This document shows positions 3,701 to 27,760 of a DNA stretch of 64,000 nucleotides, piece after piece. The translations under genes and the position numbers were made by a program. The notes below the pieces were generated by a model that worked only from the letters and a program-made list of their open reading frames with translations, did not search any database and was not told the DNA's origin. The stretch is from Roseateles aquatilis (GTDB lineage Bacteria > Pseudomonadota > Gammaproteobacteria > Burkholderiales > Burkholderiaceae_C): the NCBI RefSeq assembly GCF_002205645.1, contig NZ_NIOF01000011.1, positions 124,001 to 188,000 of the forward strand, read 5' to 3'. How positions within the stretch are numbered: the first letter of the stretch is position 1; each line of letters opens with the position of its first letter.

Positions 3701-4648
3701 ATGCGATCGATCACCGAAACGCAGGTGGCACGGCACCTGACCCCGGCCCGTCGGCCGGCCCAACTCGCGGCGTTGCGCGAGGCCTTCGAACACTTCGCCC
3801 AAGGCCGCGCGACGGTCCTGCCCCGCAGTCGCGCCGCCCTGGCGCAGGCCAGCGGCGCGCCCATGGTCAGCGCGATGGGCGCGGTGCTGCCGGACATGCT
3901 CGGCACCAAGGTCTACGCGACGCTGAACGGCAAGTTCCAGTTCGTCGTCAACCTCTTCGACACCACCACCGGGCTGCCGCTGGCCACGATGTCGGCCAAC
4001 GAGCTCACCCGGGTCCGCACTGCCGCCACCACCGCGCTGGCGGTGGATACGCTGGCCCGCGCGCAGGCGCGCGTGCTCGGCGTCTTCGGCAACGGCGTGC
4101 AGGCGCAGGCCCATGTGGAGGCGCTGCTTGGCGTACGCCGTTTCGAGCGCGTGATGCTGCACGCCCGCTCCGACGCGCCGGGCACCGCCGCACGCTGGTC
4201 GGCTGAATTCGGCCTGCCCGTCGAGGCCGTCGACGCCGCCCGTGTCGCCGCCGAGAGCGACGTCATCGTGACCTGCACGCGTGCCACCGAGCCGCTGTTC
4301 GACGGCGCCCTGGTGCGTCCCGGCACGCTGGTCTGCGCGGTGGGCTCGAGCAAGCCGGTCGCCCGCGAGCTGGACGACACGCTGTTGGCGCGCGCCGCGG
4401 CGGTCGTCGTCGAATGGAAGACGGCCGCGTTGGCCGAGGCCGGCGAGCTGGTCCGCGCCGCGCCCGGCACGATCGCGCCGGAGCGGCTGAAGGAGCTCGG
4501 CGAGCTGCTGGTCGCCGGCCATGCGCCGGCGGCGCAGGACATCGTCGTCTACAAGAGCGTCGGCATCGGGCTGGAGGACATCGCGCTGGCCGCGATGGTG
4601 CTCTGCGACGAAGCGGCGGCACAGGCCGGGTCGGAGCAGCCATCGTGA
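3701..4648 (+). CDS. Ornithine cyclodeaminase / mu-crystallin family dehydrogenase
   Basis: This 315-residue NAD(P)-dependent enzyme belongs to the family of ornithine cyclodeaminase, archaeal-type alanine dehydrogenase, ketimine reductase and mu-crystallin. Visible family features are the substrate-side segment GTKVYATLNGKFQF, the TAATTALAVDTLA stretch, a Rossmann motif GVFGNGVQAQAH (about residues 127-138), the VTCTRATEPLF strand and the C-terminal VYKSVGIGLEDIALA. An upstream ATG at 3635 would add 22 unrelated residues, so the ATG at 3701 is preferred. The stop overlaps the start of the PBP4 gene (GTGA, bases 4645-4648), which implies translational coupling. Because PBP4 enzymes liberate D-alanine, an amino-acid dehydrogenase role acting on alanine or a related product is plausible, but the substrate is not determined by sequence. 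Confidence 0.85.
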   Translation: MRSITETQVARHLTPARRPAQLAALREAFEHFAQGRATVLPRSRAALAQASGAPMVSAMGAVLPDMLGTKVYATLNGKFQFVVNLFDTTTGLPLATMSANELTRVRTAATTALAVDTLARAQARVLGVFGNGVQAQAHVEALLGVRRFERVMLHARSDAPGTAARWSAEFGLPVEAVDAARVAAESDVIVTCTRATEPLFDGALVRPGTLVCAVGSSKPVARELDDTLLARAAAVVVEWKTAALAEAGELVRAAPGTIAPERLKELGELLVAGHAPAAQDIVVYKSVGIGLEDIALAAMVLCDEAAAQAGSEQPS

Positions 4649-6078
4649 GCCGCCGCCTGACCGCCGCGCTGGGTTTCGTGGCACTGGCCGCGCTGAGCGG
4701 CTGCGCGACCGTCGGTCAACCGCCGGAGCCGGTCGAGGCCGCGTTGCGGCAGGCGGGCGTGCCGCCGACGTCGCTGGCGGTGGTGGCCTTCCCGGTCGAC
4801 GCGCCCGAGACCGGCCTGCGCCTGAATGCCGACCGGCCGATGGCGCCCGCCTCGACGATGAAGGCGATCACCGCGGTGGTCGCGCTGGACCGGCTCGGAC
4901 CCAACAGCCGGGGACAGACGCAGTTGCTCGCCGTCGGCGAGATCCGCGACGGGCGCCTGGAGGCGCCGCTGGTGCTCAAGGGCGGCGGCGACGCGGACCT
5001 CGACTGGGGCGCGTTGTGGATGATGCTGCGCGAGGTGCGCGAGCGCCACGGCGTGCGCGAACTGGCCGGCGGCATCGTCGTCGACCGCGGGTTGTTCAAT
5101 CCGGCCCGGCCCGAGATCGGCGCGCCGCGCTTCGACGAGCAGGCCGAGTTCCCCTACAACGTCATCCCCGACGCACTGCATCTCAACGGCAACTTGCTGC
5201 AGTACGACTTCGCCGCCGACGACCGCGGCCTGACGGTGCGGCCGTTCCCGCAGTTCGGCGCGCTGGCGATCGACACGAGCGAGGTACGGCTCAACGACAA
5301 GCCCTGCAAGGACTGGGACGGCGGCTGGTTGCCGTCGCGCTTCGAGGCCTTGCCCGACGGCGCCGCGCGACTGGTGCTGGCGGGCGAGTTCCCGCGCGGG
5401 TGCCAGGTCTTGCAATCGCTCAACGTGCTGGACCGGCAATGGGAAACGGCCCAGGCGCTGCGGCAGCTGTGGGGCTCGCTGGGCGGCACGCTGTCGGGCG
5501 AGATCCGCGAGGGCGTCGCGCCCGAGGGCGCCCGGGTGCTCGCGATGCATCGCGACCGGCCGCTGGCCGAGTTGCTGCGGCCGGTGATGAAGTCCTCGGA
5601 CAACGCGCTGGCGCGCTTGATCTTCCTGCGGCTCGGCGCGTCGGCGGCGCAGCCCGGCGAGGACACGCGCCTGGCCGCCGACCGCGTCGTGCGTGAATGG
5701 TTCGCCGCCCGGAAGATCGACACGACGGGCCTGGCGCTGGAGAACGGCTCGGGCTTGTCGCGCACCGAGCGCGCGACCGTGGCGCAGATGGCCGCCATGC
5801 TGGCGGCCTCGGCGCGCGGTCCGCACGGACCCGAGCTGCTGGCCACGCTGCCGGTGGCCGGCGTCGACGGCACGCTGAGCCGCCGCATGAAGGGCACTGC
5901 CGCCGAAGGCCGCGCCCGCATGAAGACCGGCACGCTGCGCGACGTCGTGGCGCTGGCCGGCTTCGTGCCGGATTCGCGCGGCAGGAACTGGATCGTGGTC
6001 GCGATCATCAATGACGATCAGGCGATGAAGGCCCGCGCGGCGATCGACGCGTTGGTGGATTGGGTGGCGCGGCGCTGA
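4645..6078 (+). CDS. dacB: D-alanyl-D-alanine carboxypeptidase/endopeptidase, PBP4 type (S13), lipoprotein
   Basis: This 477-residue class C low-molecular-mass penicillin-binding protein trims D-Ala from, and cuts cross-links between, peptidoglycan stem peptides in the periplasm. All three active-site motifs are present: S70-T-M-K73, S318-D-N320 and K427-T-G429. The long insertion between the first and second motifs is typical of S13 enzymes. The N-terminus has a short hydrophobic segment ending LSGC, a lipobox, so the protein is probably membrane-anchored, unlike the soluble E. coli enzyme. The GTG at 4645 is chosen because it overlaps the upstream stop and places the signal sequence at the N-terminus. 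The longer open frame upstream is antisense-like read-through of the preceding gene. It fits the envelope-turnover theme of the locus. Confidence 0.93.
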   Translation: MSRRLTAALGFVALAALSGCATVGQPPEPVEAALRQAGVPPTSLAVVAFPVDAPETGLRLNADRPMAPASTMKAITAVVALDRLGPNSRGQTQLLAVGEIRDGRLEAPLVLKGGGDADLDWGALWMMLREVRERHGVRELAGGIVVDRGLFNPARPEIGAPRFDEQAEFPYNVIPDALHLNGNLLQYDFAADDRGLTVRPFPQFGALAIDTSEVRLNDKPCKDWDGGWLPSRFEALPDGAARLVLAGEFPRGCQVLQSLNVLDRQWETAQALRQLWGSLGGTLSGEIREGVAPEGARVLAMHRDRPLAELLRPVMKSSDNALARLIFLRLGASAAQPGEDTRLAADRVVREWFAARKIDTTGLALENGSGLSRTERATVAQMAAMLAASARGPHGPELLATLPVAGVDGTLSRRMKGTAAEGRARMKTGTLRDVVALAGFVPDSRGRNWIVVAIINDDQAMKARAAIDALVDWVARR

Positions 6079-6091
6079 GATCGACCGGGCG

Positions 6092-6718: not shown

Positions 6719-6834
6719 GGGAGCTCCTTCAAAAGTGAAAGCGCTCCTTAGTCGGCAGTCCCGTTGCAGCACCCGCAACCCGATCGATGCGGGCGGCCCG
6801 CGTCGGGCGCCCGATGGCGGCAGGGCGGATGCGT

Positions 6835-7899
6835 TCAGAGCACGGCCGATGACAGCAGTCGCACCGTGCCCGCCCGAGCGTCCATCTCGGCCGGCAAACC
6901 CACCGGCACGGTGAACTTGCGCTTGATGTGGCCGATCATCGCGCCGCGGTAGACGGGAACGTTCAGGGGCAGGAAGTAGTCGTCGAAGACCTCGTCCAGC
7001 GTCAGCGTGCCGAAGTTGCCGTCGCCGGGGCCGCATTGCGTGAATTTGCCCAGTACCACGCCGGCCAGTTGGTCGAGCGCGCCGCACAGGCGCAGCGTCG
7101 AGAGCATGCGGTCGACGCGATAGATGTACTCGTTGATCTCTTCCAGGAACAGGATCGCGCCGCGCGTGTCCGGGAAGAACGCCGAGCCGGCCAGCGAGCT
7201 CAGCACCGCCAGGTTGCCGCCGATCAGCGGCCCGCGCGCGACGCCGGCGCGCAGCGTGCTGATGCGGTCCTCGCGCTGGACCAGGTGGGCGCCGCGCTCG
7301 CCCTGCGGGTTCTGCAGCAGGTCCGGCTGCGCGTCCATGACGACCGTCTTGAAGTGTTGCAGCGAGAACTCGTTCCACTCCGAGCCCGCCACCGGGCAGT
7401 GGAAGGTGACCAGGCCGGTCTGCTTCTGGATCGCGTTGACCAGGCTGGTCAGGTCCGAGAAGCCGCCGAAGAACTTGGGCTTGCGGCGGATCAGCGCGTA
7501 GTTGAGCTTGTCGACGATGCGGTTGCAGCCGGAGCCGCCGGTCAGCGCCAGGATGCCGGCGACCTCGTCGTCGGCGAAGGCGTCGTTGATGTCGGCGGCG
7601 CGTTGCGCGTCGGTGCCGCCGAACTGGCCGTAGCGGCCGCGCACGTTGGCGCCGGGCTTGACCTTGAAGCCGAGCGCCTGCAGCGTTTCGACGGCGATCT
7701 CCAGCGGCTCGCGCTCATAGGTGGCGTTGGCCGGGCTGACCAGCGCGATCGTGTCGCCGGGACGCAGGCGGCGCGGGCGCACCGTCTCCGGCGCGGCCGG
7801 GCGCGCATCGCGCGCGGGGGCGGACGTCTGCGCCTGCGCGGCGGGCAGCAGCGCGCCGGCGAGCGCGCCGGTCAGGATCTGGCGACGGGATGCGGTCAT
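6835..7899 (-). CDS. LD-carboxypeptidase (S66), exported
   Basis: This 354-residue serine peptidase removes the terminal D-residue from tetrapeptide stems, giving tripeptides. The N-terminus MTASRRQILTGALAGALLPAAQA is a twin-arginine-type signal (SRRQIL). Family elements follow in order: RLRPGDTIALVSPA, the Gly-rich strand ILALTGGSGCNRIVDKL, the nucleophile turn GGFSDLTSL (candidate Ser148), GPLIGGNLAVLSSLAGS, the acidic segment LFLEEINEYIYRVDRML holding the catalytic Glu, and GHIKRKFTVPVG with candidate His324. Length fits the family plus a signal peptide. Cytoplasmic LdcA acts in internal recycling. An exported version suggests trimming of peptides outside the cytoplasm before import. It is 76 bases downstream of the VanX-like dipeptidase gene and probably cotranscribed with it. 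Confidence 0.9.
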   Translation of the reverse strand: MTASRRQILTGALAGALLPAAQAQTSAPARDARPAAPETVRPRRLRPGDTIALVSPANATYEREPLEIAVETLQALGFKVKPGANVRGRYGQFGGTDAQRAADINDAFADDEVAGILALTGGSGCNRIVDKLNYALIRRKPKFFGGFSDLTSLVNAIQKQTGLVTFHCPVAGSEWNEFSLQHFKTVVMDAQPDLLQNPQGERGAHLVQREDRISTLRAGVARGPLIGGNLAVLSSLAGSAFFPDTRGAILFLEEINEYIYRVDRMLSTLRLCGALDQLAGVVLGKFTQCGPGDGNFGTLTLDEVFDDYFLPLNVPVYRGAMIGHIKRKFTVPVGLPAEMDARAGTVRLLSSAVL

Positions 7900-7975
7900 G
7901 GGATCTCCGAGGGGTTGCCGGCCGGACCGGGTCCGGACGTGTTCGAGCGCGCCCAGGTCATGAGCGGACGGCGGG

Positions 7976-8698
7976 TCAGAGCACCAGCGGCAGCGCGCGG
8001 CGGACCTGGTCGCGGTCGCCGAAATCGAAATGCCACCACTCGGTGCTGATCGTCTGGAAGCCGGCGTGGCGCATCGCCGCGCGCAGCCAGCCGCGGTGCG
8101 CCAGTTGGGCCGCGGTCAGGCCGCCCTGCGCGAGCTGCTCGGCTTCGAACTCCGGGTGCGAGGCCGGCGTCATCTCGTCGAAGCCGGTGCCCATGTCGAG
8201 CTCGCGGCCGTCGGCGGCCAGCAGCGTGACGTCGACCGCCATGCCGAAGGAATGGATGGACCGGCGCGCCGGGTGGGCCAGGTACTTGGTCAGCGGCGTG
8301 CCTTCGAGTTCCGCCCACAGCGCTTCCTGCACCCGTTGCGGACGCAGCGCGTCCAGCACGACCAGCGTCACGCCCGGCCGGTGGCGCGACAGCCACTCGG
8401 CCGCCCGCGCCACGGCGTCGGCGGCTTCGCGGCGCAGATAAGCGCAGTCCAGTCCGCCGTAGACGTTGCGGCCGACGAAGTTGTCCGGTGTCGCATAACG
8501 CAGGTCCACCGCGATGCCGGGGATGCTCAGCAGGGCGCGGAACTCGGGGTGCGCGGCGATCTCCTCGCAGGGGATCGCGAGGGCGCCGACGAGCGTGTCG
8601 GCGATCGCACCGGCAGGGGCGCGCGCGGGCGAGTCACCAGTCGGCGTGCCGGATGAATCGGCGGGCGAAGGGGGAAGGGCGGCGTCCGGCGTGGTCAT
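7976..8698 (-). CDS. ddpX: D-alanyl-D-alanine dipeptidase (M15D, VanX/DdpX family)
   Basis: This 240-residue zinc dipeptidase hydrolyses free D-Ala-D-Ala. Ligands are visible: SIHSFGMAVD gives His149 and Asp156, and EWWHF gives catalytic Glu220 and ligand His223. LDALRP supplies the conserved arginine at 119. The first 35 residues are Pro/Ser/Ala-rich and dispensable-looking, with no clear signal peptide, so the enzyme is probably cytoplasmic. In E. coli, DdpX sits in a D-Ala-D-Ala uptake operon with a Dpp-like transporter. The same association appears here, with a LysR gene immediately upstream and DppA/DppBCDF genes further up. This supports use of imported D-Ala-D-Ala or related dipeptides. 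Vancomycin resistance is unlikely in a Gram-negative and no vanA/vanH genes are present. Confidence 0.9.
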   Translation of the reverse strand: MTTPDAALPPSPADSSGTPTGDSPARAPAGAIADTLVGALAIPCEEIAAHPEFRALLSIPGIAVDLRYATPDNFVGRNVYGGLDCAYLRREAADAVARAAEWLSRHRPGVTLVVLDALRPQRVQEALWAELEGTPLTKYLAHPARRSIHSFGMAVDVTLLAADGRELDMGTGFDEMTPASHPEFEAEQLAQGGLTAAQLAHRGWLRAAMRHAGFQTISTEWWHFDFGDRDQVRRALPLVL

Positions 8699-8740
8699 TT
8701 CGAGAACTTCTTCAGCGGCGAGTGGCGCGCCCCGGGGATG

Positions 8741-9640
8741 TCAGCCGAGGCTTTCCAGGTTGGAGCGGGCCGCGTCCCGCAGGTAGTTGACCAGCCGCCG
8801 CGCCGCCTGCGCCAGCGGCGCGCTGGCGGAGGTCAGCAGGTAGAGCTGGATGGTCATCGCCGGTTCCAGCGGGCGGACCTTGACGCGGCTGCGGTCCGCC
8901 GACGCGGCGGTGAAGGGATCGACGACGGTCATGCCGACGCCGGCCTCGACCAGCGCGCGGGCGAGCTGGTAGGTCTGCACGGTGATGCGGCTGTCCAGGT
9001 GGCGGCCCTCGGCCTCGCTGGCGTTGTGCAGCATGTGGCCGATGGGGTCGTCCTCGGCCATCGCGATCAGCTCGGACTGGATCTCCTGCAGCGGCAGCGG
9101 GCCGGTGCCTTGCGCCTCGGCGCTGTGCAGCGGGCACAGCGCCATCAGCGTGCCGGTGGCCAGCACCTCGGCCTTGATGCCGGGATGGCGCGGGTCGTGC
9201 AGGCTGAGCGCGAGGTCGGCCTCGCCGAGCAGCAGCGCCGAGACGATCTCGCGGGTGTGGTTGGTGCTGAGCTGGCAATGGCTGCGCGGGAAGGCCTGCG
9301 CCCAGTGCGTCATCGCGGCGGGAATCACCGCCGCGCCGAGCGTGGGCGTGGCCATCAGGCGCAGGGATTCGGACTCGCCGCTGCGCAGGTTGGCCGCCAG
9401 CCGGCGGATCGCGACCAGGTCGCGGTTGAGCTTGTCGATCTCGATGAACAGCCGCTGCGCCTCCGGCGTCGGATAGAGCTTGCCGCGAACGCGGTCGAAC
9501 AGCGGCATGCCGAGCTGGAGCTCGCAGTGCTGCAACACCTTCGTCACGGCCGGCTGCGAGATGTGCAGCAACTGCGCCGCGCCGCTGATCGTGCCGGCCT
9601 GCATGATGGCGTGGAAGACTTCGATGTGCCGAAGTCTCAT
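8741..9640 (-). CDS. LysR-family transcriptional regulator
   Basis: This 299-residue regulator has the N-terminal LysR winged HTH (about residues 1-60: MRLRHIEVFHAIMQAGTISG, then AAQLLHISQPAVTKVLQHCE). A substrate-binding domain follows, including ATPTLGAAVIP and ALSLHDPRHPG segments. It lies within the minus-strand muropeptide cluster, between the peptide-binding protein and the dipeptidase genes, and is codirectional rather than divergent. A plausible role is control of the adjacent dipeptidase/LD-carboxypeptidase genes or the whole Dpp cluster in response to a peptide or amino-acid ligand. This is inferred from position. Start ATG at 9640; length is typical for the family. Confidence 0.92.
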   Translation of the reverse strand: MRLRHIEVFHAIMQAGTISGAAQLLHISQPAVTKVLQHCELQLGMPLFDRVRGKLYPTPEAQRLFIEIDKLNRDLVAIRRLAANLRSGESESLRLMATPTLGAAVIPAAMTHWAQAFPRSHCQLSTNHTREIVSALLLGEADLALSLHDPRHPGIKAEVLATGTLMALCPLHSAEAQGTGPLPLQEIQSELIAMAEDDPIGHMLHNASEAEGRHLDSRITVQTYQLARALVEAGVGMTVVDPFTAASADRSRVKVRPLEPAMTIQLYLLTSASAPLAQAARRLVNYLRDAARSNLESLG

Positions 9641-9766: not shown

Positions 9767-11389
9767 TTATTCACGATAGACGTTCTCGAAGACCACCCCG
9801 CCGTTCGGTTGCATCTTGAACCCGTGCAGGTCCTTGCTGGTCGGGATGTAGACCGTCGAGTGTGCCATCGTGATCCAGGGACGCTCCCGCTTGAAGATCT
9901 CCTGGGCCTTTTCATAGAGCGCGATGCGCCGGGCCGGGTCGGGCGTGGCGCGGGCGGCGTCGATGAGGTGCTCGAACTCCTGGTTGCAGAACTTGACGCC
10001 GGTCTTGTTGGTCGCGCAGCTGAGGTTGGGGGTGAGGAAGTCGTCGGCGTCGCCGCTCTCGCCGGCCCAGCCGCTCATGTAGACGGAGTGCTCGCCGGCG
10101 TTGGCACGCTTGAGGTACTCGCCCCATTCGTAGGTGCGGATCTGCGCGCGCACGCCGATGCGGGCCCAGTCCTGCTGGATCAGCTGAGCCATCAACTGGC
10201 CGTTCGGATTGGTCGGCCGCGTGACCGGCAGCGCCCAGAGGTCCAGGTCCAGGCCGTTGGGGAAGCCGGCCTGCTTCAGCAACTCCCGGGCGCGGTCCGG
10301 GTTGTATTCGTTCTTGAGCGTGCGGTTGTAGCCCGGGATGGCTGGCGGGAACGGGTTCACGGCCTGCATCGCGTCGCCGCGCGGGAACAGCGCGCGGAAG
10401 ATCGCGTCGCGGTCGATGGCGATGTCCAGCGCCTCGCGCACCAGGTGGTTGTCGGTCGGCGGCTTGCGCAGGTTGAACGACAGGTAGGAGATGTTGAGCG
10501 CCTGGATCTTCTCGAGCCGGATGCGTTCGGGATGGCGGTCCAGCGCGGCGACGTCGATGTCGCGCAGCGGGGAGGTGATCTGGCACTCGCCGGCCAGCAG
10601 CTTCTGCACGCGCACCGGGGCTTCGCGGCTGATGGTGAAGATCAGCTTGCGGGTCTTCTGCGGCTCGCCCCAGTAGTCGGGGTTGGCGTCCATGCGGACG
10701 ACGTCGTCCTTGGCATAGCTGCGGAAGAGGTAGGGCCCGGTGCCGATCGGCAGCCGGTTGATCTGCGGGGCCTTGCCCTCGCGCAGGAGCTGGGCGCCGT
10801 ACTCCGCCGACTGGATGCCGGCGAAGGCCATCGCGAACCAGGTGACGAAGGTGACGTTGGGCCGCGCCAGCGTGAAGCGGACGGTGCGGTCGTCGAGCTT
10901 CTCCATCTTCGTGATCGCCTGGGCCAGGCCCAGGTTCTGCGGATAGACGAAGTTGGCCGGGAAGGCCTTGTTGAACGGCGTGTTCCGGTCGAGGAAGCGG
11001 CCGAAGGTGAACAGCACGTCGTCGGCGTTGAGCGGGCGCGTCGGCGTGAACCAGGGGCGGGTGTGGAAGCGGACGTTCTCGCGCAGCGTGAAGGTGAACT
11101 CGCGGGCGTCGGGGCTGATGGTCCAGGAGGTCGCCAGCGCCGGCTGGATCGCGGTGCCGCCGCGCTCGAAGCGCACCAGCCCCTGGAACATCTGGTTGTT
11201 GACGTTGTTGGTCGAGGCCGAATCCCATAACCCCGGATCGAAGCCCTCCGGGCTGGCGTCCGTGCAATAGATCAGCGGCTTGGGCGCGACGGCGCCGGCC
11301 GCGCAGGCGGCGGGATTCGCGACGGCAAGCAGGGTGGCCAGCAGGACAGGGAGAACAGGGCGCATCGGGGAGGGGGAGTGCCGACGCAT
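9767..11389 (-). CDS. Peptide ABC transporter substrate-binding protein (DppA/OppA family, SBP_bac_5)
   Basis: This periplasmic peptide-binding protein of about 540 residues delivers ligand to a DppBC-type permease. A signal peptide ends near PAACAAG, and mature family motifs follow: YCTDASPEGFDPGLWDS, VRFHTRPWF, NADDVLFTFGRFLD, GTGPYLFRSY, NPDYWG, REALDIAIDRDAI and YNPDRARELLKQAG. The closest general type is the DppA dipeptide/haem/muropeptide-binding group. The start is uncertain: ATG 11389 keeps an Arg-rich n-region, ATG 11365 is possible, and neither has a strong ribosome site. The gene is separated from the dppBCDF genes by the StbDE-type toxin-antitoxin pair but lies on the same strand. 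It is most likely the cognate binding protein for tripeptides or murein peptides, as with E. coli MppA. Confidence 0.92.
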   Translation of the reverse strand: MRRHSPSPMRPVLPVLLATLLAVANPAACAAGAVAPKPLIYCTDASPEGFDPGLWDSASTNNVNNQMFQGLVRFERGGTAIQPALATSWTISPDAREFTFTLRENVRFHTRPWFTPTRPLNADDVLFTFGRFLDRNTPFNKAFPANFVYPQNLGLAQAITKMEKLDDRTVRFTLARPNVTFVTWFAMAFAGIQSAEYGAQLLREGKAPQINRLPIGTGPYLFRSYAKDDVVRMDANPDYWGEPQKTRKLIFTISREAPVRVQKLLAGECQITSPLRDIDVAALDRHPERIRLEKIQALNISYLSFNLRKPPTDNHLVREALDIAIDRDAIFRALFPRGDAMQAVNPFPPAIPGYNRTLKNEYNPDRARELLKQAGFPNGLDLDLWALPVTRPTNPNGQLMAQLIQQDWARIGVRAQIRTYEWGEYLKRANAGEHSVYMSGWAGESGDADDFLTPNLSCATNKTGVKFCNQEFEHLIDAARATPDPARRIALYEKAQEIFKRERPWITMAHSTVYIPTSKDLHGFKMQPNGGVVFENVYRE

Positions 11390-11449
11390 TGTCGAAACGC
11401 AGGAACGCCGGTCACAACTGAAATGGGCGGGTTGGACCATAACACCGGG

Positions 11450-11821
11450 TTATGCGGAAGCGGACTTCAACGCCAACCCGTTGCCTGCGGCCTTGGCCTG
11501 CTTGAGTCGAACCAGGGTGATCCGGTAGGCCAATGCGCCTTCACGCTTTCCGACGCAGAACACGATGACGACAAGCACGCCGTCGTCGACGCGGTAGGTG
11601 AGTCGAATGCCGTGGCGCAGCAGCTTGATCTTGTAGAGGCCCGCCAGTTCGTCCTTCAACGCTGATCCAGGCGCATGAGGGTGCACAAGACGCTTGATCA
11701 GCAAGGATTTGAGCGCCTTGCGTATCGAGCCATCGAGTGCTCGCCATTCGTCCCAGGCCTGGGGCAGGAAGAGCAGGCCGTAGGGGCCACGCTGAGAGGG
11801 TGTTGATTCAGAGGTCGTCAA
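11450..11821 (-). CDS. RelE/StbE-family toxin (mRNA interferase)
   Basis: This 123-residue toxin belongs to the RelE/ParE superfamily, closest in pattern to StbE. Visible motifs are YGLLFLPQAWDEWRALD, the LKDELAGLYKIKLLRHGIRLTY core and VVIVFCVGKRE. RelE toxins bind the ribosomal A site and cleave mRNA. The conserved basic residues (Lys and Arg in KIKLLRHGIR and KRE) are intact, so the protein is probably functional. It has an N-terminal extension of about 12 residues and a C-terminal tail of about 20 compared with the 90-100-residue norm. Its start overlaps the antitoxin 3' end by 14 bases. The pair sits inside the peptide transporter cluster, between the ATPase and binding-protein genes. 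Confidence 0.88.
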   Translation of the reverse strand: MTTSESTPSQRGPYGLLFLPQAWDEWRALDGSIRKALKSLLIKRLVHPHAPGSALKDELAGLYKIKLLRHGIRLTYRVDDGVLVVIVFCVGKREGALAYRITLVRLKQAKAAGNGLALKSASA

Positions 11822-12059
11822 GATCGACCTCGATCAGCGTGGATTTCTCGGCGAGGCGCTCGATGGTCTTCTTGTAGACGTCCTGATCTGCGAGGTCGTC
11901 CATGATCGCTTCGAACAGGAGCGGGTCCATCACGTAGAAGGCAGGCTTGCCGCCGCGGAGCACTGCGATCGGCCGATGATTCGCCGCTTCCAGGACAGCG
12001 TTCGTCTGTCTCTTGAACTCCGAGAGGCTGACGGTCAGTTCGTGGTCTTTGGCTTCCAT
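11808..12059 (-). CDS. StbD-type (Phd/YefM superfamily) antitoxin
   Basis: This 83-residue antitoxin matches the usual StbD length. The N-terminal Phd/YefM fold is visible: LTVSLSEFKRQTNAVLEAAN, then the hairpin RPIAVLRGGKPAFYVMDP. An acidic, flexible toxin-binding tail ends EVDLDDL. The ATG at 12059 follows AAGGAG and is preferred over in-frame starts up to 12179, which would add an unrelated Pro/Ser-rich leader. It precedes the toxin on the minus strand with overlapping reading frames. Such pairs autoregulate by binding palindromes upstream of the antitoxin. I did not find a clear palindrome between 12060 and 12150. Confidence 0.88.
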   Translation of the reverse strand: MEAKDHELTVSLSEFKRQTNAVLEAANHRPIAVLRGGKPAFYVMDPLLFEAIMDDLADQDVYKKTIERLAEKSTLIEVDLDDL

Positions 12060-12328
12060 ATCGGCTCCTTGAGGCGAGTCGACCATTGTTGGCGCGCCCG
12101 AAGGCGAAGGGAAGAAGCGGCCCTTCGCAGGCGCGAGGGACTCGGGCAGGCGGTGTGACATGGAGAAGGCTCCCAACAAAGAAGGGCAGCAATTTCACGT
12201 CGACCGCGCATCACTCGCAATGGCTTCGACCAGTCGAAATGATGAAGGGGGAAGTCAGTGCGGGCTGTCGCCTTTCAGGCGAGCATGGGAGGTTTGTCTC
12301 GACAGGCCCGGCCTGTTGAGCGCTGCGA

Positions 12329-21400: not shown

Positions 21401-21882
21401 AGGTTGCGGGCGATCGACGCGTAGGCGTCCAGATCGGCGCGCGTGATCTGCGTGCCGGCACCCATCGTCGAGTTGTTGAACTTGGCGGCGGTGGAGCTGC
21501 CGGTGGTGACCACCGTGTCGAGCTGCGTCGAAGCACGGCCCAACTGGACGTCCAGGTTCAGCGTTTCCGCCAGCACCAGGTAGACGCCGTCGCTGACCTC
21601 GCGGTCGCTGCCCTTGGTCACGGTCACGCTGTAAGGACCGCCGACGCGCAGACCGCGCGCGTTGTAGCGACCTTCGTTGTCGGTGGTCTGCGTGTTCGAG
21701 GAGCCGGACTCCTTGTGCACGATCACCACCGTGGCGCCCGCGACGGGCTTGCCGTCAGCGCCGACCACGCGGCCGCCGACGGCGGACGTGGTGTTCTGTG
21801 CCATGACCGGCGCGGCGGCCACGATGGCGACCGCGACAGCTAGCGCCGTCCGTGAAAAACCCAACCAATCCTTCTGATTCAT
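18409..21882 (-). CDS. Oar-like TonB-dependent receptor with carboxypeptidase-regulatory-like domain
   Basis: This outer-membrane receptor has 1157 residues. A signal peptide (cleavage near APVMAQN, residue 29) is followed by a CarboxypepD_reg-like beta-sandwich (about residues 32-115: GGRVVGADGKPVAGATVVI...DNEGRYNARGL). A plug domain (about 125-260, with ITRADLDAYASIARNLQDYARNDP and NAVTKSGTNEFKG) leads into a very long barrel ending QVTAAYEF. This is the architecture of Oar proteins and of large receptors for polymers or proteins. The ATG follows CAGGAG. A near-palindrome at 21942-21957 lies about 60 bases upstream. It sits between the kinase-amidase-Dpp operon and the murQ-digH operon, both on the same strand, so uptake of peptidoglycan fragments is a reasonable guess. 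The ligand is unknown. Confidence 0.94.
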   Translation of the reverse strand: MNQKDWLGFSRTALAVAVAIVAAAPVMAQNTTSAVGGRVVGADGKPVAGATVVIVHKESGSSNTQTTDNEGRYNARGLRVGGPYSVTVTKGSDREVSDGVYLVLAETLNLDVQLGRASTQLDTVVTTGSSTAAKFNNSTMGAGTQITRADLDAYASIARNLQDYARNDPRLAQTDKERGEISAGGQNSRYNSITIDGVAINDSFGLEANNLPTAKQPISIDAIQSVQVNLSNYDVTQKGYTGANINAVTKSGTNEFKGSVYYVYRDDSMMGQRYDRGTDRYTDFLKFKEDTKGFTLGGPIVKDKLFFFVNYEELKSNRAQPEYGPIGSSLTNNAISQAQLDAITKTAKDTYGIDTGSVIGQSQLTVKDYLAKLDWNINQNHRASLRLARTEQSDTNNGSFGGYSATGLQMTSQWWQQKKKIDTVVGQWFADWTPDFSTELKISNRDYNSVPQNNSNLPAIGIRFNGALPDGAPAGSSTGNRFVNFGTEQSRQFNVLDTKTLDAYFGGTWIKDDHEIKFGADLQRNKIYNAFFQNVNGNYTFGCENTVAATGNTPAQWAYSFGSINCSTATAAQVQAAVLENFVRGRPSTYQVQQPLAGGSLNDGIANWTLTQAGLFVQDTWNISKDLNITAGFRVDQLSTGDKPVYNAAAAAAPVAGRVVPGGTGANSVVRSTGGFGLDNSQTVDGENLFQPRFGFNYALDSRQGHKKQIRGGAGLFQGAAATVWLTNPYSNTGMATRIIGCGAAGLNSCSGTASGVFNADPTKQPVLPGTTPAANVDYIQKGLGQPSVWKMNLAYDAELPFFGMNFGVEWIYTKVNTGVYYQHLNLGDPTATGPDGRSLYYTPQSYSTGCWTSTNGSLSTAGACAGGRSRALSNASYNNVLLASKTKKGDGNAITLSFTRPARDGFGFGAAYTYTEASEVSPLTSSVSNSNFNSRAVFNPNENVAANSAYMIRDRFTANVTWQKAFISSFKTSVGLFWEGRRGKPYSWTYLNDMNGDGVSGNDLLYIPKARGSNEVAFVTPADEAAFWAVVDNDKTLSKYKGAVVPRNSSFSQFVNSFDLRISQEVPGFFPQHKGKVTFDILNIGNLLNKKWGRIDEVTFQSAGGNRRSFVNFAGIDAQGRYVYRTNTNAINDNLNIRQVKGESQWALQVTAAYEF

Positions 21883-21941
21883 TCCTGTGCTCCTGTGCGA
21901 CGTCAGACCGAAAACTCTTCCCGGGGCCCTGCTGAAATGAT

Positions 21942-22063: not shown

Positions 22064-22092
22064 AGCCTACCAGCCGAAACCTGCTGTATCAA
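22064..22092 (-). promoter_or_regulatory. Candidate sigma-70 promoter for the Oar-like receptor
   Basis: On the minus strand TTGATA (22092-22087) is followed after exactly 17 bases by TAGGCT (22069-22064). This would give a leader of about 175 bases. It is judged by eye only. Confidence 0.4.
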
Positions 22093-22466: not shown

Positions 22467-23990
22467 TCAGACGACGAAGGCGCCGCGCGGTCCTTCCTGA
22501 TTCAGCCCGTTGACCGCGCTGGCGCTGAGGAGCCATCCCGGCTCGAGTCGGCCGAGGCGCCCGTCGGGCGGCACCACATCGAACACCCACGGCGACCCGG
22601 GCTGGTGCGCCGCGCGCTTCCATAGCGCGAAGCACCGGGCGGGTGCGCCGAGCTGCGTGGTCAGCAGCAGGCCGCCGTCCGGCTCCCGCTCCAACCGCAC
22701 CGGCCCGCAGGCAGGGCCGCTGAGCCAGGGCGTCTCGGGCGGCAATGACGGCTGGATGTAAGCGCCGGCTCGCAAGGTACTCGCGATGCCCCGGCGATTC
22801 TTCAGCAGGGCGATCATGCTGAAGTGCAGATGTCCGCCGGTGGCGGACGGCGTCCGCATCAGGTCGATCTGGGCTGGGATCTCGTCGACCGGCCAGCCGT
22901 CCGCCTCGTTCGCAGCCTTGCTGGTGAACAGCCCGGGCCAGACATGGCGCCCCTGCGGATTGAGCGACTGCCAGGCCCGCAGCAGCGGCTCGAACGCCTG
23001 CGCCTGCGGCGCGCGCTGCCAGTAGAGCTGCGGCGCCAGGTAGTCCAGCCAGCCCATCGCCAGCCAGTGCTCCACGTGCGCGTACAGCTTGTCGTACTGC
23101 GAGAAGCCCGTGATGCCCGCCGGTCGCAGATCCGGACGCGGCAGCCCGAACGGGCTGATGCCGACGCGCGCGGCGGGCCGCAGTTCGCGGACCACGTCGT
23201 ACAGGCGCCGTACCAGTTGATCGACGTTGTCCCGCCGCCAGTCGGCCCGCGCCAGCGTGCCGCCTTGGCGCAGGTAACGCTGCCAGCTCGGATCGTCGGG
23301 GAAGTCGATGTCCTGCTTGGCCGCGTCCTGGACCGGATACGGGTAGAAGTAATCGTCGATGTGCAGGCCGTCGACCTCGTAGCGGGTCAGCAGGTCGCGG
23401 CAGACGGCGAGCGTGTGCTCGGCGGCGCCCGGTTCGCCCGGATCGATCCAGAGCTGGTCGCCATAACGCTTGACCCAGTCCGGACGCGTGCGGCTCAGGT
23501 GCAGCGCCGACGGCGCCGACCGGGCGCCGCTCTGCCGCGCCCGGTACGGGTTCAGCCAGGCGTGCAGCTCGATGCCGCGCGCGTGCGCCTCGGCGATCCA
23601 CACGGCCAGCGGGTCGTAGCCCGGCCCCTGGCCCTGGACGCCGGACAGGTACTCGCTCCAGGGCTCCAGCTCGGAGCGGTACAGCGCGTCCGCGCTGGTG
23701 CGCACTTGAAGCACGATGGCGTTCAGCCGCAGCGCGCGGGCGTTGTCCAGGATCGCGCGGATCTCGGCGATCTGGGCGTCGTCGCTCAAGCCCTTGCGGC
23801 TCGGCCAATCGATGTTGGCGACGGTGGCGACCCAGGCGGCGCGGAACTCGCGCGGCGCCGGTGGCGGCTGGTCCGGACCGGCGGCGGCGGGCAGCGCCGG
23901 GACTTCCTCGGGCTTGCGCCACATCGAGCAGCCGGGCAATCCCAGCACGGGCGCGGCCAGGGCCGCGGTCATCAGCAGTCGTCGTTGCAT
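22467..23990 (-). CDS. GHL10-type glycosyl hydrolase lipoprotein (DigH/YddW family)
   Basis: This 507-residue protein has a lipobox (LGLPGCSM, Cys21) and an (alpha/beta)8 glycosidase-like GHL10 domain from about residue 47: EFRAAWVATVANIDWPSRKG, NAIVLQVRTSADALYRSE, GIELHAWLNPYRA, then the acidic DGLHIDDYFYPYP, VGISPFGLPRP and DYLAPQLYWQR. A C-terminal beta domain ends the protein. E. coli DigH (YddW), in the same family, hydrolyses denuded peptidoglycan glycans, that is strands from which amidases have removed peptides. This fits the AmiD-type amidase encoded nearby. The gene is the last of the murQ-HTH-MFS-nagX operon, 33 bases after nagX. The ATG at 23990 gives a proper lipoprotein signal. 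Confidence 0.88.
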   Translation of the reverse strand: MQRRLLMTAALAAPVLGLPGCSMWRKPEEVPALPAAAGPDQPPPAPREFRAAWVATVANIDWPSRKGLSDDAQIAEIRAILDNARALRLNAIVLQVRTSADALYRSELEPWSEYLSGVQGQGPGYDPLAVWIAEAHARGIELHAWLNPYRARQSGARSAPSALHLSRTRPDWVKRYGDQLWIDPGEPGAAEHTLAVCRDLLTRYEVDGLHIDDYFYPYPVQDAAKQDIDFPDDPSWQRYLRQGGTLARADWRRDNVDQLVRRLYDVVRELRPAARVGISPFGLPRPDLRPAGITGFSQYDKLYAHVEHWLAMGWLDYLAPQLYWQRAPQAQAFEPLLRAWQSLNPQGRHVWPGLFTSKAANEADGWPVDEIPAQIDLMRTPSATGGHLHFSMIALLKNRRGIASTLRAGAYIQPSLPPETPWLSGPACGPVRLEREPDGGLLLTTQLGAPARCFALWKRAAHQPGSPWVFDVVPPDGRLGRLEPGWLLSASAVNGLNQEGPRGAFVV

Positions 23991-24023
23991 CGAAGGCTCA
24001 CTGGCGGGCGCCGCGGGCCCCGC

Positions 24024-25175
24024 TCACACTTTCACGATCCAGCCGCGCCGCCACATGGCCCACGCGATGCCGTAGAACACCGCCACGAAGCCGGCGGCGA
24101 ACAGCAGCGACGCGAGGCGCGGGTCCACCGGCAGCGCGCGCAGCGGCGCGTACAGCCAGGCCTTGAGCGTCACGCCCTCGGCCATGTGGATCAGCCCGAG
24201 CAGCCGGGCCACCAGGCCCGACAGCGCGAACAGGAACAGCGCGTTCATGCCGAACACCACCAGCGGCCGCAGGCGACGCCCCATCGCGTCGCGCATCCGC
24301 GGCAGCGGCGCGGCATCGAGCAGCCAGTAGAACACGCCGAACACGAGTGCTCCCCAGCCGGTGCAGAGGAAAACGTAGGCGGGCGTCCAGAGATTCTTGT
24401 TGATCGGCAGGGTCCAGGCGTCGAGCACCTGCGCGATCCACAGGCAGAGCAGCCCGGCGACCATGAACCATGTCGCCTTCTCCGCCGGATCGCGGCCACG
24501 CAGCGCCAGCCAGCGGCCGGCCAGCAGCCCCGCGATCTGGCTGGCCACGGCCGGCAGCGTGCCGAGCAGGCCCTCCGGGTCCCAGGTCTTGCTGCGCACC
24601 CACAGGTGGCCGCCGAGCAGCGCCCGGTCCAGCCAGGCGCCGACGTCCTCGCCCGGCTGCAACGAGCCGCGATGCCAGATGCCTTGCGCGTCGGGCACGG
24701 CCACCAGCGTCTGCACCAGGCCGTAGACGATCAACAGGCCGGCGAACCAGGCCAACTGGGCCCGCCAGCCACACCACAGCGCGATCGGCGCGGCCAGGAT
24801 CGTGATCAGCCCGAGCCGCTGCAGCACGCCGGGGATGCGGACGGTGTCGACGTGGAAATAGGGGAACAGGTTGAGCAGCAGCCCGATCGCGATGATGGTC
24901 GCGCCGCGCCGCCAGGTGCGCAGCAGCACGGCGCCGCGGTCCGACGCCCGGCCGCGGCGGGCCAGGCTGAAGCTCATCGAGATCCCGCTGATGAAGACGA
25001 AGAACGGGAAGATCCAGTCGGTGAAGGTCCAGCCGTGCCAGGCGGCGTGCTCCAGCGGCGCGTACAGCGCGGACCAGTCGCCCGGGTTGTTGACCAGCAG
25101 CATGGCCGCGATCGCGAAGCCGCGGAACGCGTCCAGCGACAGCAGCCGGCCGTCGCCGGCGCGCGCGGTGCTCAC
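24024..25175 (-). CDS. NagX-like inner-membrane protein (DUF5009 / heparan-alpha-glucosaminide acetyltransferase-related)
   Basis: This polytopic membrane protein has 383 residues and roughly ten hydrophobic segments. The N-terminal hallmark RLLSLDAFRGFAIAAMLLVNNPG is followed by WTFTDWIFPFFVFISGISMSFSL, and further on NLFPYFHVDTVRIPGVLQRLG and the LPINKNLWTPAYVF segment. These are characteristic of the NagX/YeiB-HGSNAT-related group. NagX genes occur in N-acetylglucosamine and chitin utilisation clusters of Xanthomonas and Shewanella, where the protein is linked to amino-sugar uptake or modification. The start is a GTG at 25175 that overlaps the MFS gene stop (GTGA, 25172-25175). In-frame starts further upstream would run through the MFS gene. 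Confidence 0.88.
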   Translation of the reverse strand: MSTARAGDGRLLSLDAFRGFAIAAMLLVNNPGDWSALYAPLEHAAWHGWTFTDWIFPFFVFISGISMSFSLARRGRASDRGAVLLRTWRRGATIIAIGLLLNLFPYFHVDTVRIPGVLQRLGLITILAAPIALWCGWRAQLAWFAGLLIVYGLVQTLVAVPDAQGIWHRGSLQPGEDVGAWLDRALLGGHLWVRSKTWDPEGLLGTLPAVASQIAGLLAGRWLALRGRDPAEKATWFMVAGLLCLWIAQVLDAWTLPINKNLWTPAYVFLCTGWGALVFGVFYWLLDAAPLPRMRDAMGRRLRPLVVFGMNALFLFALSGLVARLLGLIHMAEGVTLKAWLYAPLRALPVDPRLASLLFAAGFVAVFYGIAWAMWRRGWIVKV

Positions 25176-26464
25176 CGGCGTGTCTCCGTGGCGGCGTCCT
25201 TGCGGCCGAAGCCCTCGGGCACCTTGATCAGCGCGGTCATGACCAGCGACGGCACCGTCGCCACCAGCACCCAGCCGAAGAAGTGGACGTAGCCGAGCTG
25301 GTCCTGCAGCCAGCCGCTCCACATGCCGGGCAGCATCATGCCCAGCGCCATGAAGCCGGTGCAGATCGCGTAATGCGCGGTCTTGTGCGGGCCGTCGGCG
25401 ACCAGGATCATGTACATCAGGTAGGCCGTGAAGCCCAGGCCGTAGCCGAACTGCTCGATCGCCAGCGCGCCGCTGACGATCCACAGGCTGCCCGGATGCG
25501 TCCAGGCCATCGCGAGGAACACGACGTTGGGCAGGTGCATCGCCAGCACCAGCGGCCACAGCGCCTTCTTCAAGCCGACGCGCGAGATGATCCAGCCCCC
25601 CAGCAGCCCGCCCAGCGTCAGCGCCGTCAGGCCGATGGTGCCGTAGGCCAGGCCGACTTCCTTGTTGGTCAGCGCCAGGCCGCCGGCCTCCAGCTTGTCG
25701 AGCAGGAACGGCGTGGCCAGCTTCAGCAACTGGGCTTCGGGGAAGCGGTACAGCAGCAGGAAGCCCAGGATCACCGCGAGGCCGGGCTTGCGGAAGAACG
25801 CCGCGAAGATGTGGAAGAAGGTGCGCCAGTGGCGTTCGCCGCTGGGCACGGGACCGTCGCTGTCGGGCCGCGGCAGGCGCCACAGGTGATACGCGGCCAG
25901 CAGCAGGAAAACACCGGCCAGCACCGCCATCACGCCCTGCCACGCCAGCGCCCAACTGCCGCCGCGCTCGTGCAGCTCGCCCGCCAGCCAGACCAGGCCG
26001 CCCTGTCCGCCGATGTTGGCCAGCCGGTAGAAGGTGGAGCGCACGCCGACGAAGGCGGCCTGCTCATGCTTCTCCAGCGCCAGCAGATAGAAGCCATCGG
26101 CGGCGATGTCGTGCGAGGCCGAGGCGAACGCCATCAGCCAGAGCACCGCCAGCGACAGCTGGAAGAACTTCGACGCCGGCAGCGTCAGCGCGACCATCGC
26201 CAGCGCCGCGCCGATCGCGAACTGCAGCGCGACGATCCACAGCCGCTTCGTGCCCATCAGCTCGACCAGCGGGGACCACAGCGGCTTGATCACCCAGGGC
26301 AGGTAGAGCCAGCTGGTGTAGAGCGCGATGTCGGTGTTCGAGATCTCCAGGTTCTTGTACATGATGACCGACAGCGTCATCACGACCACGTACGGAATGC
26401 CCTGGGCGAAGTACAGCGAGGGGACCCAGCCCCACGGGCTGCGAGTATCTGGAGCGGCGTGCAT
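25172..26464 (-). CDS. MFS transporter, AmpG/MurT-like (muropeptide or MurNAc permease candidate)
   Basis: This 430-residue inner-membrane permease has twelve predicted helices. Helix 1-2 carries YFAQGIPYVVVMTLSVIMYKN and SWLYLPWVIKPLWSPLVELMGTKR, the pattern of the AmpG/PAT branch of the MFS, which carries GlcNAc-anhydro-MurNAc peptides. Similar permeases accompany MurK and MurQ, as in the murTKQ operon of Tannerella forsythia. HDIAADGFYLLALEKHEQAAFVGVRSTFYR is a long conserved stretch in helices 4-5. ATG 26464 lies five bases after the stop of the small HTH gene; the open frame continues upstream to 26752, but that part is a shadow of it. With MurQ two genes upstream, uptake of MurNAc or anhydro-muropeptides is the likely task. 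Confidence 0.85.
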   Translation of the reverse strand: MHAAPDTRSPWGWVPSLYFAQGIPYVVVMTLSVIMYKNLEISNTDIALYTSWLYLPWVIKPLWSPLVELMGTKRLWIVALQFAIGAALAMVALTLPASKFFQLSLAVLWLMAFASASHDIAADGFYLLALEKHEQAAFVGVRSTFYRLANIGGQGGLVWLAGELHERGGSWALAWQGVMAVLAGVFLLLAAYHLWRLPRPDSDGPVPSGERHWRTFFHIFAAFFRKPGLAVILGFLLLYRFPEAQLLKLATPFLLDKLEAGGLALTNKEVGLAYGTIGLTALTLGGLLGGWIISRVGLKKALWPLVLAMHLPNVVFLAMAWTHPGSLWIVSGALAIEQFGYGLGFTAYLMYMILVADGPHKTAHYAICTGFMALGMMLPGMWSGWLQDQLGYVHFFGWVLVATVPSLVMTALIKVPEGFGRKDAATETRR

Positions 26465-26469
26465 GAAGC

Positions 26470-26832: not shown

Positions 26833-26866
26833 GTCCGGGCTTTCGGCGGGTAGGCGGGGCGGCCGA

Positions 26867-27760
26867 TCAGCGCCCGGCCAGCGCGCGCCGCACGCTGCCG
26901 TCGTGGCGGCCCAGCAGCGCCAGCGCGGACGGCGCGTCGAGCTGCTTCAGCAGCATGACGACGGCCGTCTTGACGCTGAAGTCGCAACGGCCCAGCGCCT
27001 CGCGGGCGGTCGCCTCGTCGACGCCGGCGGCGCGCATCGTCAGCGCCACCGCGCGGCGCACCAGCTTGGCGTTGGTGGCCTTCATGTCCACCATCAGGTT
27101 GCCGTAGACCTTGTTGAGCCGGACCATCAACGCGCTGGAGAAACTGTTCAGCGCGATCTTCTGCGCCGTGCCGGCCTTCAGCCGGGTGCTGCCGGAGATG
27201 ATCTCGTTGCCGGTGTCCAGCAGGATCGGGTGCTCGCTCGCGGCCAGCACCGCGGCGCCGGGGTTGTTGGCCACGCCGATCGTCAGGCAGGCCGCCGTGC
27301 GGCCGGCCGCCAGCGCGCCCAGCACGTAGGGCGTGTGGCCGGATGCGGCGATGCCGATCAGCACGTCGTCGGGGCCGGGCTGCAGGACCTCGATGTCCCG
27401 GCGGCCCTGGTGCTCGTCGTCCTCGGCGCCCTCGACGGCGACGAACATCGCGCCTTCGCCGCCGGCCAGCACCGCCACCGCGCGCTCGCGCGGCCAGGAG
27501 AAGGTCGGGACCAGCTCGACGCTGTCCAGCACGCCGAGCCGGCCCGACGTGCCCGCGCCCGCGTACAGCAGCCTGCCGCCCGCGGCGATGCGCGGCAGCG
27601 CGGCGTCCACCGCGGCGGCCAGGGCCGGGGCCGCCGCGCGCACCGCCTCGACGGCGGCCCGCTGGTCGTCGACCAGCGCCTGCATCAGCCGGGCGCTGTC
27701 GTACAGGTCCAGGTCGGGGTGTTGCAGACTGGGCGTCTCGGTATTGAGGATGTTGAGCAT
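26867..27760 (-). CDS. murQ: N-acetylmuramic acid 6-phosphate etherase
   Basis: This 297-residue cytoplasmic lyase converts MurNAc-6-phosphate into GlcNAc-6-phosphate and D-lactate. It is a full-length SIS-domain protein: early region LNTETPSLQHPDLDLYDS, GGRLLYAGAGTSGRLGVLDSVELVPTF (the invariant sugar-phosphate loop), the catalytic-acid segment VAVEGAEDDEHQGRRDI, DVLIGIAASGHTPYVLGAL, then TGNEIISGSTRLKAGTAQKIALNSFSS and KVYGNLMVDMKATNAKL, all diagnostic of MurQ. It heads the murQ-HTH-MFS-nagX-glycosidase operon. MurNAc-6-phosphate could be supplied by the BadF-type kinase at 17133-18134. No MurR (RpiR) gene is adjacent. Confidence 0.97.
   Translation of the reverse strand: MLNILNTETPSLQHPDLDLYDSARLMQALVDDQRAAVEAVRAAAPALAAAVDAALPRIAAGGRLLYAGAGTSGRLGVLDSVELVPTFSWPRERAVAVLAGGEGAMFVAVEGAEDDEHQGRRDIEVLQPGPDDVLIGIAASGHTPYVLGALAAGRTAACLTIGVANNPGAAVLAASEHPILLDTGNEIISGSTRLKAGTAQKIALNSFSSALMVRLNKVYGNLMVDMKATNAKLVRRAVALTMRAAGVDEATAREALGRCDFSVKTAVVMLLKQLDAPSALALLGRHDGSVRRALAGR

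Follow-up and report, generated by a model that had tools for sequence, protein, structure and literature searches.

The 64,000-nucleotide stretch of Roseateles aquatilis DNA analysed here (contig NZ_NIOF01000011.1, positions 124,001 to 188,000; hereafter the window) carries a cluster of about twenty genes around murQ, which encodes N-acetylmuramic acid (MurNAc) 6-phosphate etherase. The genes of this locus are real and belong together. Their families, distribution and shared upstream sites make it likely that they form one murein-utilisation regulon, a catabolic locus rather than a housekeeping recycling set. We are evenly divided about a fuller reading, in which the locus is controlled by a LysR-type regulator, has its own outer-membrane receptor and both a sugar and a D-amino-acid branch, is patchy in Burkholderiales (with its core in at least one Acidobacteriota genome, Geothrix oryzisoli) and stands beside anabolic MurU recycling. 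The cell would then keep separate routes for eating murein and for mending its own wall, contrary to a published either/or rule for MurQ and MurU.

Read downward from position 27760, the minus strand encodes MurQ, an AmpG-like permease, a NagX-like protein, a DigH-like GHL10 protein, an Oar-like receptor, a BadF-fold kinase and an AmiD-like amidase, followed by DppB, C, D and F, a RelE/YefM-type pair, DppA, a LysR-family regulator, a DdpX-like dipeptidase and LdcA. PBP4 is encoded on the plus strand beside an ornithine-cyclodeaminase-family gene, and both diverge from a TonB-dependent receptor (TBDR0) at 618-3479. The plus strand 5′ of the window (stretch L082; L and G numbers are our labels for stretches and genomes) encodes an aromatic aminotransferase, a D-amino-acid dehydrogenase (DadA; 404 bits to NF001933, cut-off 383), a class-A-like serine hydrolase and a second, leaderless LdcA (LdcA2), whose gene starts upstream of the window and ends inside it. 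The members of the locus in the window are:

618-3479, minus strand: TBDR0, candidate outer-membrane receptor of the regulon (Pfam TonB_dep_Rec 1.5e-37, and Plug)
3633-3670, minus strand: putative regulatory box 1, one mismatch, upstream of TBDR0, between it and the divergent cyclodeaminase and PBP4 genes
4645-6078 (open frame from 4414; start codon inferred), plus strand: PBP4-type DD-carboxypeptidase/endopeptidase, with a lipoprotein-like N-terminus and SxxK, SxN and KTG motifs
6835-7899, minus strand: LD-carboxypeptidase (S66), LdcA
7976-8698, minus strand: D-Ala-D-Ala dipeptidase family, DdpX/VanX-like, with SxHxxGxAxD and EWWH motifs; signal peptide not evident
8741-9640, minus strand: LysR-family regulator, candidate binder of the boxes
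9767-11440 (true start probably near 11365-11389), minus strand: DppA-type solute-binding protein
11416-11453, minus strand: putative regulatory box 2, three mismatches, upstream of dppA
12329-13309, minus strand: DppF-type ATPase
13306-14255, minus strand: DppD-type ATPase
14250-15164, minus strand: DppC permease
15196-16206, minus strand: DppB permease
16294-17139, minus strand: AmiD-like N-acetylmuramoyl-L-alanine amidase with a peptidoglycan-binding domain, lipobox LAAC, IHYT and GHADIAPGRKQDPG segments
17133-18134, minus strand: BadF/NagK/MurK-fold amino-sugar kinase, proposed MurNAc kinase
18409-21882, minus strand: Oar-like outer-membrane receptor in a variable slot
22467-23990, minus strand: GHL10 glycosidase, DigH-like, lipobox LPGC; Cwp19 is the only solved relative found
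24024-25170, minus strand: NagX-like membrane acetyltransferase (HGSNAT_cat)
25172-26452, minus strand: AmpG-family MFS permease
26867-27760, minus strand: MurQ, MurNAc-6-phosphate etherase
27866-27903, minus strand: putative regulatory box 3, no mismatch, upstream of murQ

The initial annotation had described a complete peptidoglycan scavenging system in one 24-kb stretch, 4645-27760. All the families that it named were found near the places it gave them by Pfam and NCBIfam searches, and its split into a sugar and a peptide branch fits them. To call the system complete within 24 kb overstates the case, as NagA, a second kinase, a NagZ-like GH3 enzyme and a GntR regulator lie on another contig. 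The interval also misses TBDR0 and, upstream of the window, dadA, the serine hydrolase and the second ldcA. The PBP4 gene is on the plus strand and divergent from the others, and the RelE/YefM-type pair interrupts the row between dppF and dppA.

We searched for the kinase, as the member of greatest diagnostic value, at 1e-20 in 149 genomes, including that of R. aquatilis itself (6.39 Mb). It is present in 24, all of which have MurQ, that is, in 24 of 31 MurQ genomes against 0 of 118 others (Fisher p 8e-22); outside the genus the figures are 9 of 15 against 0 of 118 (Fisher p 2e-10). These p-values are optimistic because the genomes are related. The 31 MurQ genomes have strong matches (1e-79 or better); weaker matches resemble other SIS-domain proteins, and a partial one in G130 (89 bits) was left out. 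Most of the 31 fall narrowly below the TIGR00274 cut-off (302 bits), which just 7 of the 149 genomes exceed. The R. aquatilis kinase is 63-89% identical to the kinases of 14 of the 15 other same-genus genomes, G013 giving no match. In a class-wide search of 369 genomes at 1e-40, in which up to six candidates per genome were scored, the only kinase was that of R. aquatilis, and none was found outside the order.

The neighbours of the kinase are conserved as well. Within 20 kb of it, where the contig allows, the other 23 kinase genomes have DigH in 23, MurQ and AmiD in 22 each, AmpG, DdpX and an LdcA-type protein in 21 each, LysR and PBP4 in 20 each, a TBDR0-like receptor in 20 (some of these receptors just 36-40% identical), NagX in 16, high-identity DppBCDF and DadA in 15 each, and Oar in 5. 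A scan of named genomes gave 329 stretches encoding a kinase relative, and the best 80 were kept as named loci. These are not independent cases, because 15 duplicate genomes of the 149 set and 49 come from Massilia, Duganella and other Oxalobacteraceae. Within 10 kb they contain AmiD in 76, AmpG in 75, MurQ in 73, DigH in 72, DdpX in 59, LysR in 49, PBP4 in 47, NagX in 39 and DadA in 30. Co-conservation in relatives, a premise of the initial proposal, is thus borne out, as AmpG, MurQ, DigH and AmiD each occur in 72-76 of the 80. Flanking and passenger genes are seldom kept (YkuD-like 8, RelBE 3, PLA1 1, OCD 1), and Oar is present in 4. The set stays clustered even in G036, G042, G052 and G127, where its genes are rearranged; in G111 the kinase has solely DigH and NagX beside it, and murQ lies away from it. 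Read from the MurQ side, the kinase-less G049 has nearly the whole set, G043, G045, G028 and G013 have parts, and G076 and G081 have little, as does G111, whose kinase is elsewhere. A single gap frame in G049, examined as a substitute kinase for MurQ-only genomes, has no Pfam match. In Geothrix oryzisoli (L146), MurQ-AmpG-NagX-DigH-kinase-AmiD occur in unchanged order at 52-62% identity, a resemblance that suggests transfer of the core as a module.

A conserved block, first spotted in murQ upstream regions, gave the pattern ATNACCNNNGGTTATR-N15-TTCATYG (ATNACC-N3-GGTTATR-N15-TTCATYG), which was searched with up to 3 mismatches and with the reversed pattern as control. The R. aquatilis genome contains four sites, all at the locus, and no control match. 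They precede murQ (0 mismatches), the receptor gene at 618-3479 (1), dppA (3) and dadA (3; ~3.3 kb upstream of the window). The coregulation expected by the initial annotation is therefore supported at the level of sequence only: separate operons share an upstream box that occurs, at up to 3 mismatches, nowhere else in the genome. The 31 MurQ genomes have 100 box matches against 4 for the control, and the 118 others 96 against 52; within the family, 28 MurQ genomes have 94 against 4, and 62 others 24 against 9. All same-genus matches were listed. Thirteen of 16 same-genus genomes have four box matches within ~30 kb of the kinase; the remaining ones are G006 (no dpp) and G010 (contig edge), with three each, and G013 (contig ends after DigH), with one.

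Box positions were further compared in 330 bp upstream, on the sense strand, of homologues with at least 40% identity, after removal of the 15 duplicate named loci and one duplicate record. The box precedes TBDR0 in 29 of 32 regions, DadA in 39 of 47, DppA in 14 of 20, MurQ in 26 of 88 and the kinase in 10 of 89. It is rare ahead of LysR (1/61), SpmAB (1/42) and GntR (2/42), and no match was found ahead of AmiD (87 regions), AmpG (85), DigH (73), PBP4 (57), NagX (48), DdpX (39), LdcA (27), DppB (27), LdcA2 (17), the set labelled bLacA (13), TBDRalt (10), AAT (8) or Oar (6). Mononucleotide shuffles gave no box match. In two genomes the receptor/dadA unit lies apart from murQ, on the same contig ~127 kb away in G028 and on another contig in G045, and boxes stand ahead of both DadA and the TBDR0 homologue (37% identical in G028, 59% in G045). 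These boxes, in stretches unread before, come closest to testing the pattern.

A T-N11-A dyad is the rule for LysR-type sites. The ATTACC-N3-GGTTAT half-sites have this spacing and the locus contains a LysR gene; the protein encoded at 8741-9640 probably reads the boxes. AmpR was considered as the regulator and set aside; the solved LysR matches are 8sbf, a Rubisco-operon regulator, AdmX and BenM.

The family assignments differ in firmness. PBP4 matches Peptidase_S13 at 1.8e-77 and reaches 202 bits to TIGR00666 (cut-off 108). MurQ reaches 359 bits to NF003915 (cut-off 168), but 292 to TIGR00274 (cut-off 302, just missed), and holds the segments GTSGRLGxxDxxE and VEGAEDD, whose glutamates have a functional role. 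Pfam places Amidase_2 and PG_binding_1 in the AmiD-like protein, S66 N and C domains in LdcA and Peptidase_M15 in DdpX, and it also supports the BadF kinase, GHL10/DigH, HGSNAT/NagX, MFS and SIS/MurQ assignments and an Oar-like barrel (PF25183) with a CarboxypepD_reg domain. Matches to the AmpG, NagX, NagK, DdpX, LdcA and AmpD-type models lie below the curated NCBIfam cut-offs. LdcA (6835-7899) is probably exported, as the initial annotation had it, because it begins with a twin-arginine-like leader (MTASRRQILTG). The segment GGSGC suggested an altered LdcA nucleophile, a reading that was rejected: the protein retains the aligned GFSD serine, and Ala stands in this place in one solved copy of a relative.

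TBDR0 is conserved better than the Oar-like receptor, TBDR0-like proteins being found in 20 of the 23 relatives' loci against 5 for Oar. The slot between the kinase and DigH genes holds an Oar-like receptor in 6 of 24 genomes (the window included) and an unrelated TonB receptor in 10. The slot at 18409-21882 is a receptor-swapping slot, and Oar is not in the conserved set. The earlier inclusion of the Oar-type receptor as a system member is not upheld, since it occurs in 4 of 80 named loci and 5 of 23 relatives, and 10 of the 23 have an unrelated TonB receptor in its place.

From these families we propose the following route. TBDR0, together with the changeable receptor of the 18409-21882 slot, would move murein fragments across the outer membrane. 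PBP4 would cut cross-links, the AmiD-like lipoprotein would remove stem peptides, the putatively exported LdcA would trim terminal D-Ala, and the DigH-like lipoprotein would cleave the denuded glycan. Sugars may then be imported by the AmpG-like permease and peptides by Dpp. In the cytoplasm, a NagZ-type hexosaminidase would release MurNAc, the BadF-fold kinase would convert it to MurNAc-6-P, and MurQ would split this into N-acetylglucosamine (GlcNAc) 6-phosphate and D-lactate; NagA of a separate nag locus would act next. The D-amino-acid end would be consumed by DdpX, the second LdcA and DadA. The operon heads murQ, receptor, dppA and dadA share the LysR-type box, to which the regulator is predicted to bind.

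Other genes for the same sugars lie elsewhere in the genome. AnmK occurs in 137 of the 149 genomes and in 30 of the 31 MurQ genomes (missing in G007). MurU (NF045761) reaches at least 200 bits in 27 of the 31, the exceptions being G045, G049, G051 and G076; 15 of these matches exceed the curated 250-bit cut-off and 12 lie at 208-249. AmgK was sought in the R. aquatilis genome only, where a partial translation gives 206 bits to NF045759 (cut-off 550), its best family. Outside the locus this genome encodes two GH3 enzymes, which both exceed the beta-N-acetylhexosaminidase cut-off, and it has three AmpG-family permeases, two of them beyond the locus and all under the TIGR00901 cut-off. The separate nag locus on contig 20 (L194) contains an NagK-type kinase, a GntR regulator, NagA, a NagZ-like GH3 enzyme, a permease, a NagX-like protein and a receptor-like gene. 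Its NagA means that GlcNAc-6-P from MurQ can be processed further, and its NagK-type kinase means that a GlcNAc kinase candidate is already present outside the murQ locus. Judged by gene distribution, the murQ locus is accessory, not housekeeping. The outward-facing or predatory role that had been suggested would find its only support in this patchy catabolic route beside AnmK and, mostly, MurU.

Several observations weigh against a single murein-utilisation regulon. The AlphaFold model of the kinase (mean predicted local distance difference test score, pLDDT, 83) matches S. tokodaii hexokinase and human NagK best, followed by MurK of C. acetobutylicum and MurK/K1058 of T. forsythia. Because it is thus closer to broad or GlcNAc kinases than to MurK, its MurNAc specificity rests on co-occurrence with MurQ. 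According to a passage of PMC10465942, MurK enzymes have no bulky Glu/His at 133-136 and a small residue at T94, leaving room for the lactyl group, and human NagK shares these features. In the HMMER alignment to K1058 (8oqk), G171-G172-R173-G174 and S132 occupy the same positions, which agrees with these features and is not decisive; the small aligned residues (S132, G171 and G172, with R173) would permit MurNAc. Compared with solved receptors, TBDR0 matches around the plug only, and neither receptor is tied to a murein ligand. No kinase was found at 1e-20 in seven MurQ genomes, among them G013, whose locus lies at a contig end. Of the 23 relatives' loci, 7 are without NagX and 8 without DppBCDF, and the 80 named loci are dominated by the 49 from Massilia, Duganella and their kin.

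The regulatory evidence has similar limits. The box counts are only partly independent and describe rather than test, because the pattern was built after murQ, receptor, dadA and dppA examples had been seen. Box presence is not split by LysR presence (ahead of DadA, 34/40 with LysR in the fetched stretch and 5/7 without), and just 26 of the 88 murQ upstream regions carry it. Six stray matches lie elsewhere in four genus genomes (G007, G009, G011, G012). The strays at G011:C20:42933-42970 (one mismatch) and G012:C1:4017586-4017623 (three mismatches) resemble each other, so that the box may serve outside the locus; they could mark a further regulon member or an unrelated site. Three of the six strays were read, and no gene of the set was found in the 14-15 kb around those of G011 and G012 or near that of G007. 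Where the stretch includes a GntR gene, 2 of 42 murQ upstream regions have the box, compared with 24 of 46 where it does not; regulation therefore differs between lineages, and the one with GntR seems to be controlled in another way. In 41 of the 80 named loci, murQ has a gene for a GntR/UTRA regulator no more than 500 bp away, and one such regulator (L104:5089-5832) is 67% identical to the R. aquatilis nag-locus regulator (L194:5473-6201), a tie between murQ and GlcNAc control in that lineage. Regions upstream of murQ are also enriched in a TGGT-N7-TGGT direct repeat, present in 28 of 102 records (duplicates and the window included) against a background of 0.9% of tiles, and 20 of these 28 records have a GntR gene in the stretch. 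The R. aquatilis murQ upstream region holds this repeat as well as the box, and both controls may thus act there. Neither the window nor the nag locus contains an exact match to any of eight NagR/DasR-type palindrome patterns.

Two other explanations have to be considered. The set might reclaim only the turnover products of the cell's own murein, external murein being irrelevant. E. coli AmpG, AmiD and LdcA act on own murein. So does E. coli DigH, according to PMC12288456, and a dedicated hydrolase for foreign sacculi was not identified in the locus. We nevertheless regard pure self-recycling as unlikely, since the genome already has AnmK, MurU, an AmgK-like gene, two NagZ-type GH3 enzymes elsewhere and two further AmpG paralogues, MurQ is patchy (31/149) while AnmK is near universal (137/149), and of 32 regions upstream of a TonB receptor homologue, 29 have the box. 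Alternatively, the locus might mainly serve GlcNAc or chitin fragments, with the BadF protein a GlcNAc kinase and murQ incidental. The resemblance of the kinase to NagK, the presence of NagX and the GntR genes near murQ fit this explanation. It is nonetheless hard to credit, as the genome has a separate nag locus, the kinase is never found without MurQ in the 149 genomes, and the substrates of AmiD, DdpX, LdcA, PBP4 and DadA are peptides or D-Ala rather than chitin. Catabolic use of murein thus remains the reading we prefer.

This murein-utilisation locus resembles known systems in part. In Bacillus subtilis, the cluster murQ-murR-murP-amiE-nagZ-namZ couples an amidase with MurNAc catabolism through MurQ, as here; that Gram-positive system differs in uptake and phosphorylation by MurP of the phosphotransferase system and is not known to include a TonB receptor, AmpG, DigH or a D-Ala branch. 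An operon of Tannerella forsythia (ampG-ybbC-murT-murK-murQ) likewise joins ampG, a murK-type kinase and murQ in one cluster, and PMC5388701 describes the AmpG-type permease, MurK and MurQ as one transcription unit that scavenges environmental MurNAc and muropeptides. A figure legend there lists a xanthan lyase, two glycosyltransferases, lytB, ampG and ybbC before murT-murK-murQ, and names no DigH, AmiD, LdcA, DdpX, Dpp, PBP4, DadA or TonB receptor. T. forsythia also differs as a MurNAc auxotroph and in its regulator, GppX, a hybrid two-component protein, in place of LysR. No Pfam match to YbbC (NamZ) was found among the scanned locus proteins, and no genome-wide search for it was made.

The Pseudomonas AnmK-MupP-AmgK-MurU pathway handles the same sugar, and AnmK, MurU and AmgK-like genes are present in the R. 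aquatilis genome too; that anabolic route ends in UDP-MurNAc, the MurQ route in GlcNAc-6-P. GlcNAc utilisation loci with TonB receptors are known from Xanthomonas. One of Caulobacter (PMC13046382) follows a logic of receptor, permease and NagA, as does the separate L194 locus, and the genes described in the relevant part of that paper include no MurQ, AmiD, DigH, LdcA, DdpX or Dpp. According to PMC5371407, proteobacteria, and beta- and gammaproteobacteria in particular, carry MurQ or else AmgK-MurU. The R. aquatilis genome, contrary to this, encodes MurQ together with MurU and an AmgK-like gene, and the coexistence of MurQ and MurU contradicts a rule on which phylogenetic profiling for recycling genes has relied (PMC5371407). 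Among the titles and abstract starts listed by searches of open-licence PMC papers, none concerns this gene combination in Burkholderiales, which is weak evidence of absence. Dead bacteria leave murein as a potential nutrient that is widespread, and the Gram-negative operon for scavenging it that our literature searches found belongs to a single oral anaerobe. A regulon with predicted operator, regulator and receptor makes cell-wall eating directly testable in culturable Roseateles and Massilia.

Three further genes lie among or beside those of the locus:

3635-4648 (start probably further in), plus strand: ornithine cyclodeaminase/mu-crystallin family (OCD), Pfam 3.9e-46
11450-11821, minus strand: RelE/ParE-like toxin gene, passenger between dppF and dppA, kept in 3 of 80 named loci
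11808-12179, minus strand: Phd/YefM-like antitoxin gene, passenger, likewise in 3 of 80

The RelE/ParE-like and Phd/YefM-like pair (11450-12179) also lies between dppF and dppA in G003, G004 and G005. The other genus members read did not show it in this place, save for a 33% antitoxin-like match in G007. The pair was probably inserted recently into a conserved operon. Close by, at 34674-39676 of the window, the plus strand encodes a second transporter set of Dpp/Opp type, which many genus members also have near the locus. The gene at 28085-29500 adjoins murQ and is conserved within the genus. We take the HG...SDGC motif of its product to recall L,D-transpeptidases; a YkuD-like reading was dropped, as the protein has no Pfam family and its predicted model has a mean pLDDT of 46.

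A protein with two Gate (nucleoside recognition) stretches is encoded in 41 of the 80 named loci (L104-L163, e.g. L156:15969-17207), in 38 of them within 500 bp of PBP4. We presume it to be SpmA/SpmB-like. Bacillus subtilis has the arrangement dacB-spmA-spmB, and by analogy the Gate proteins may work with DD-carboxypeptidases, perhaps on released D-Ala.

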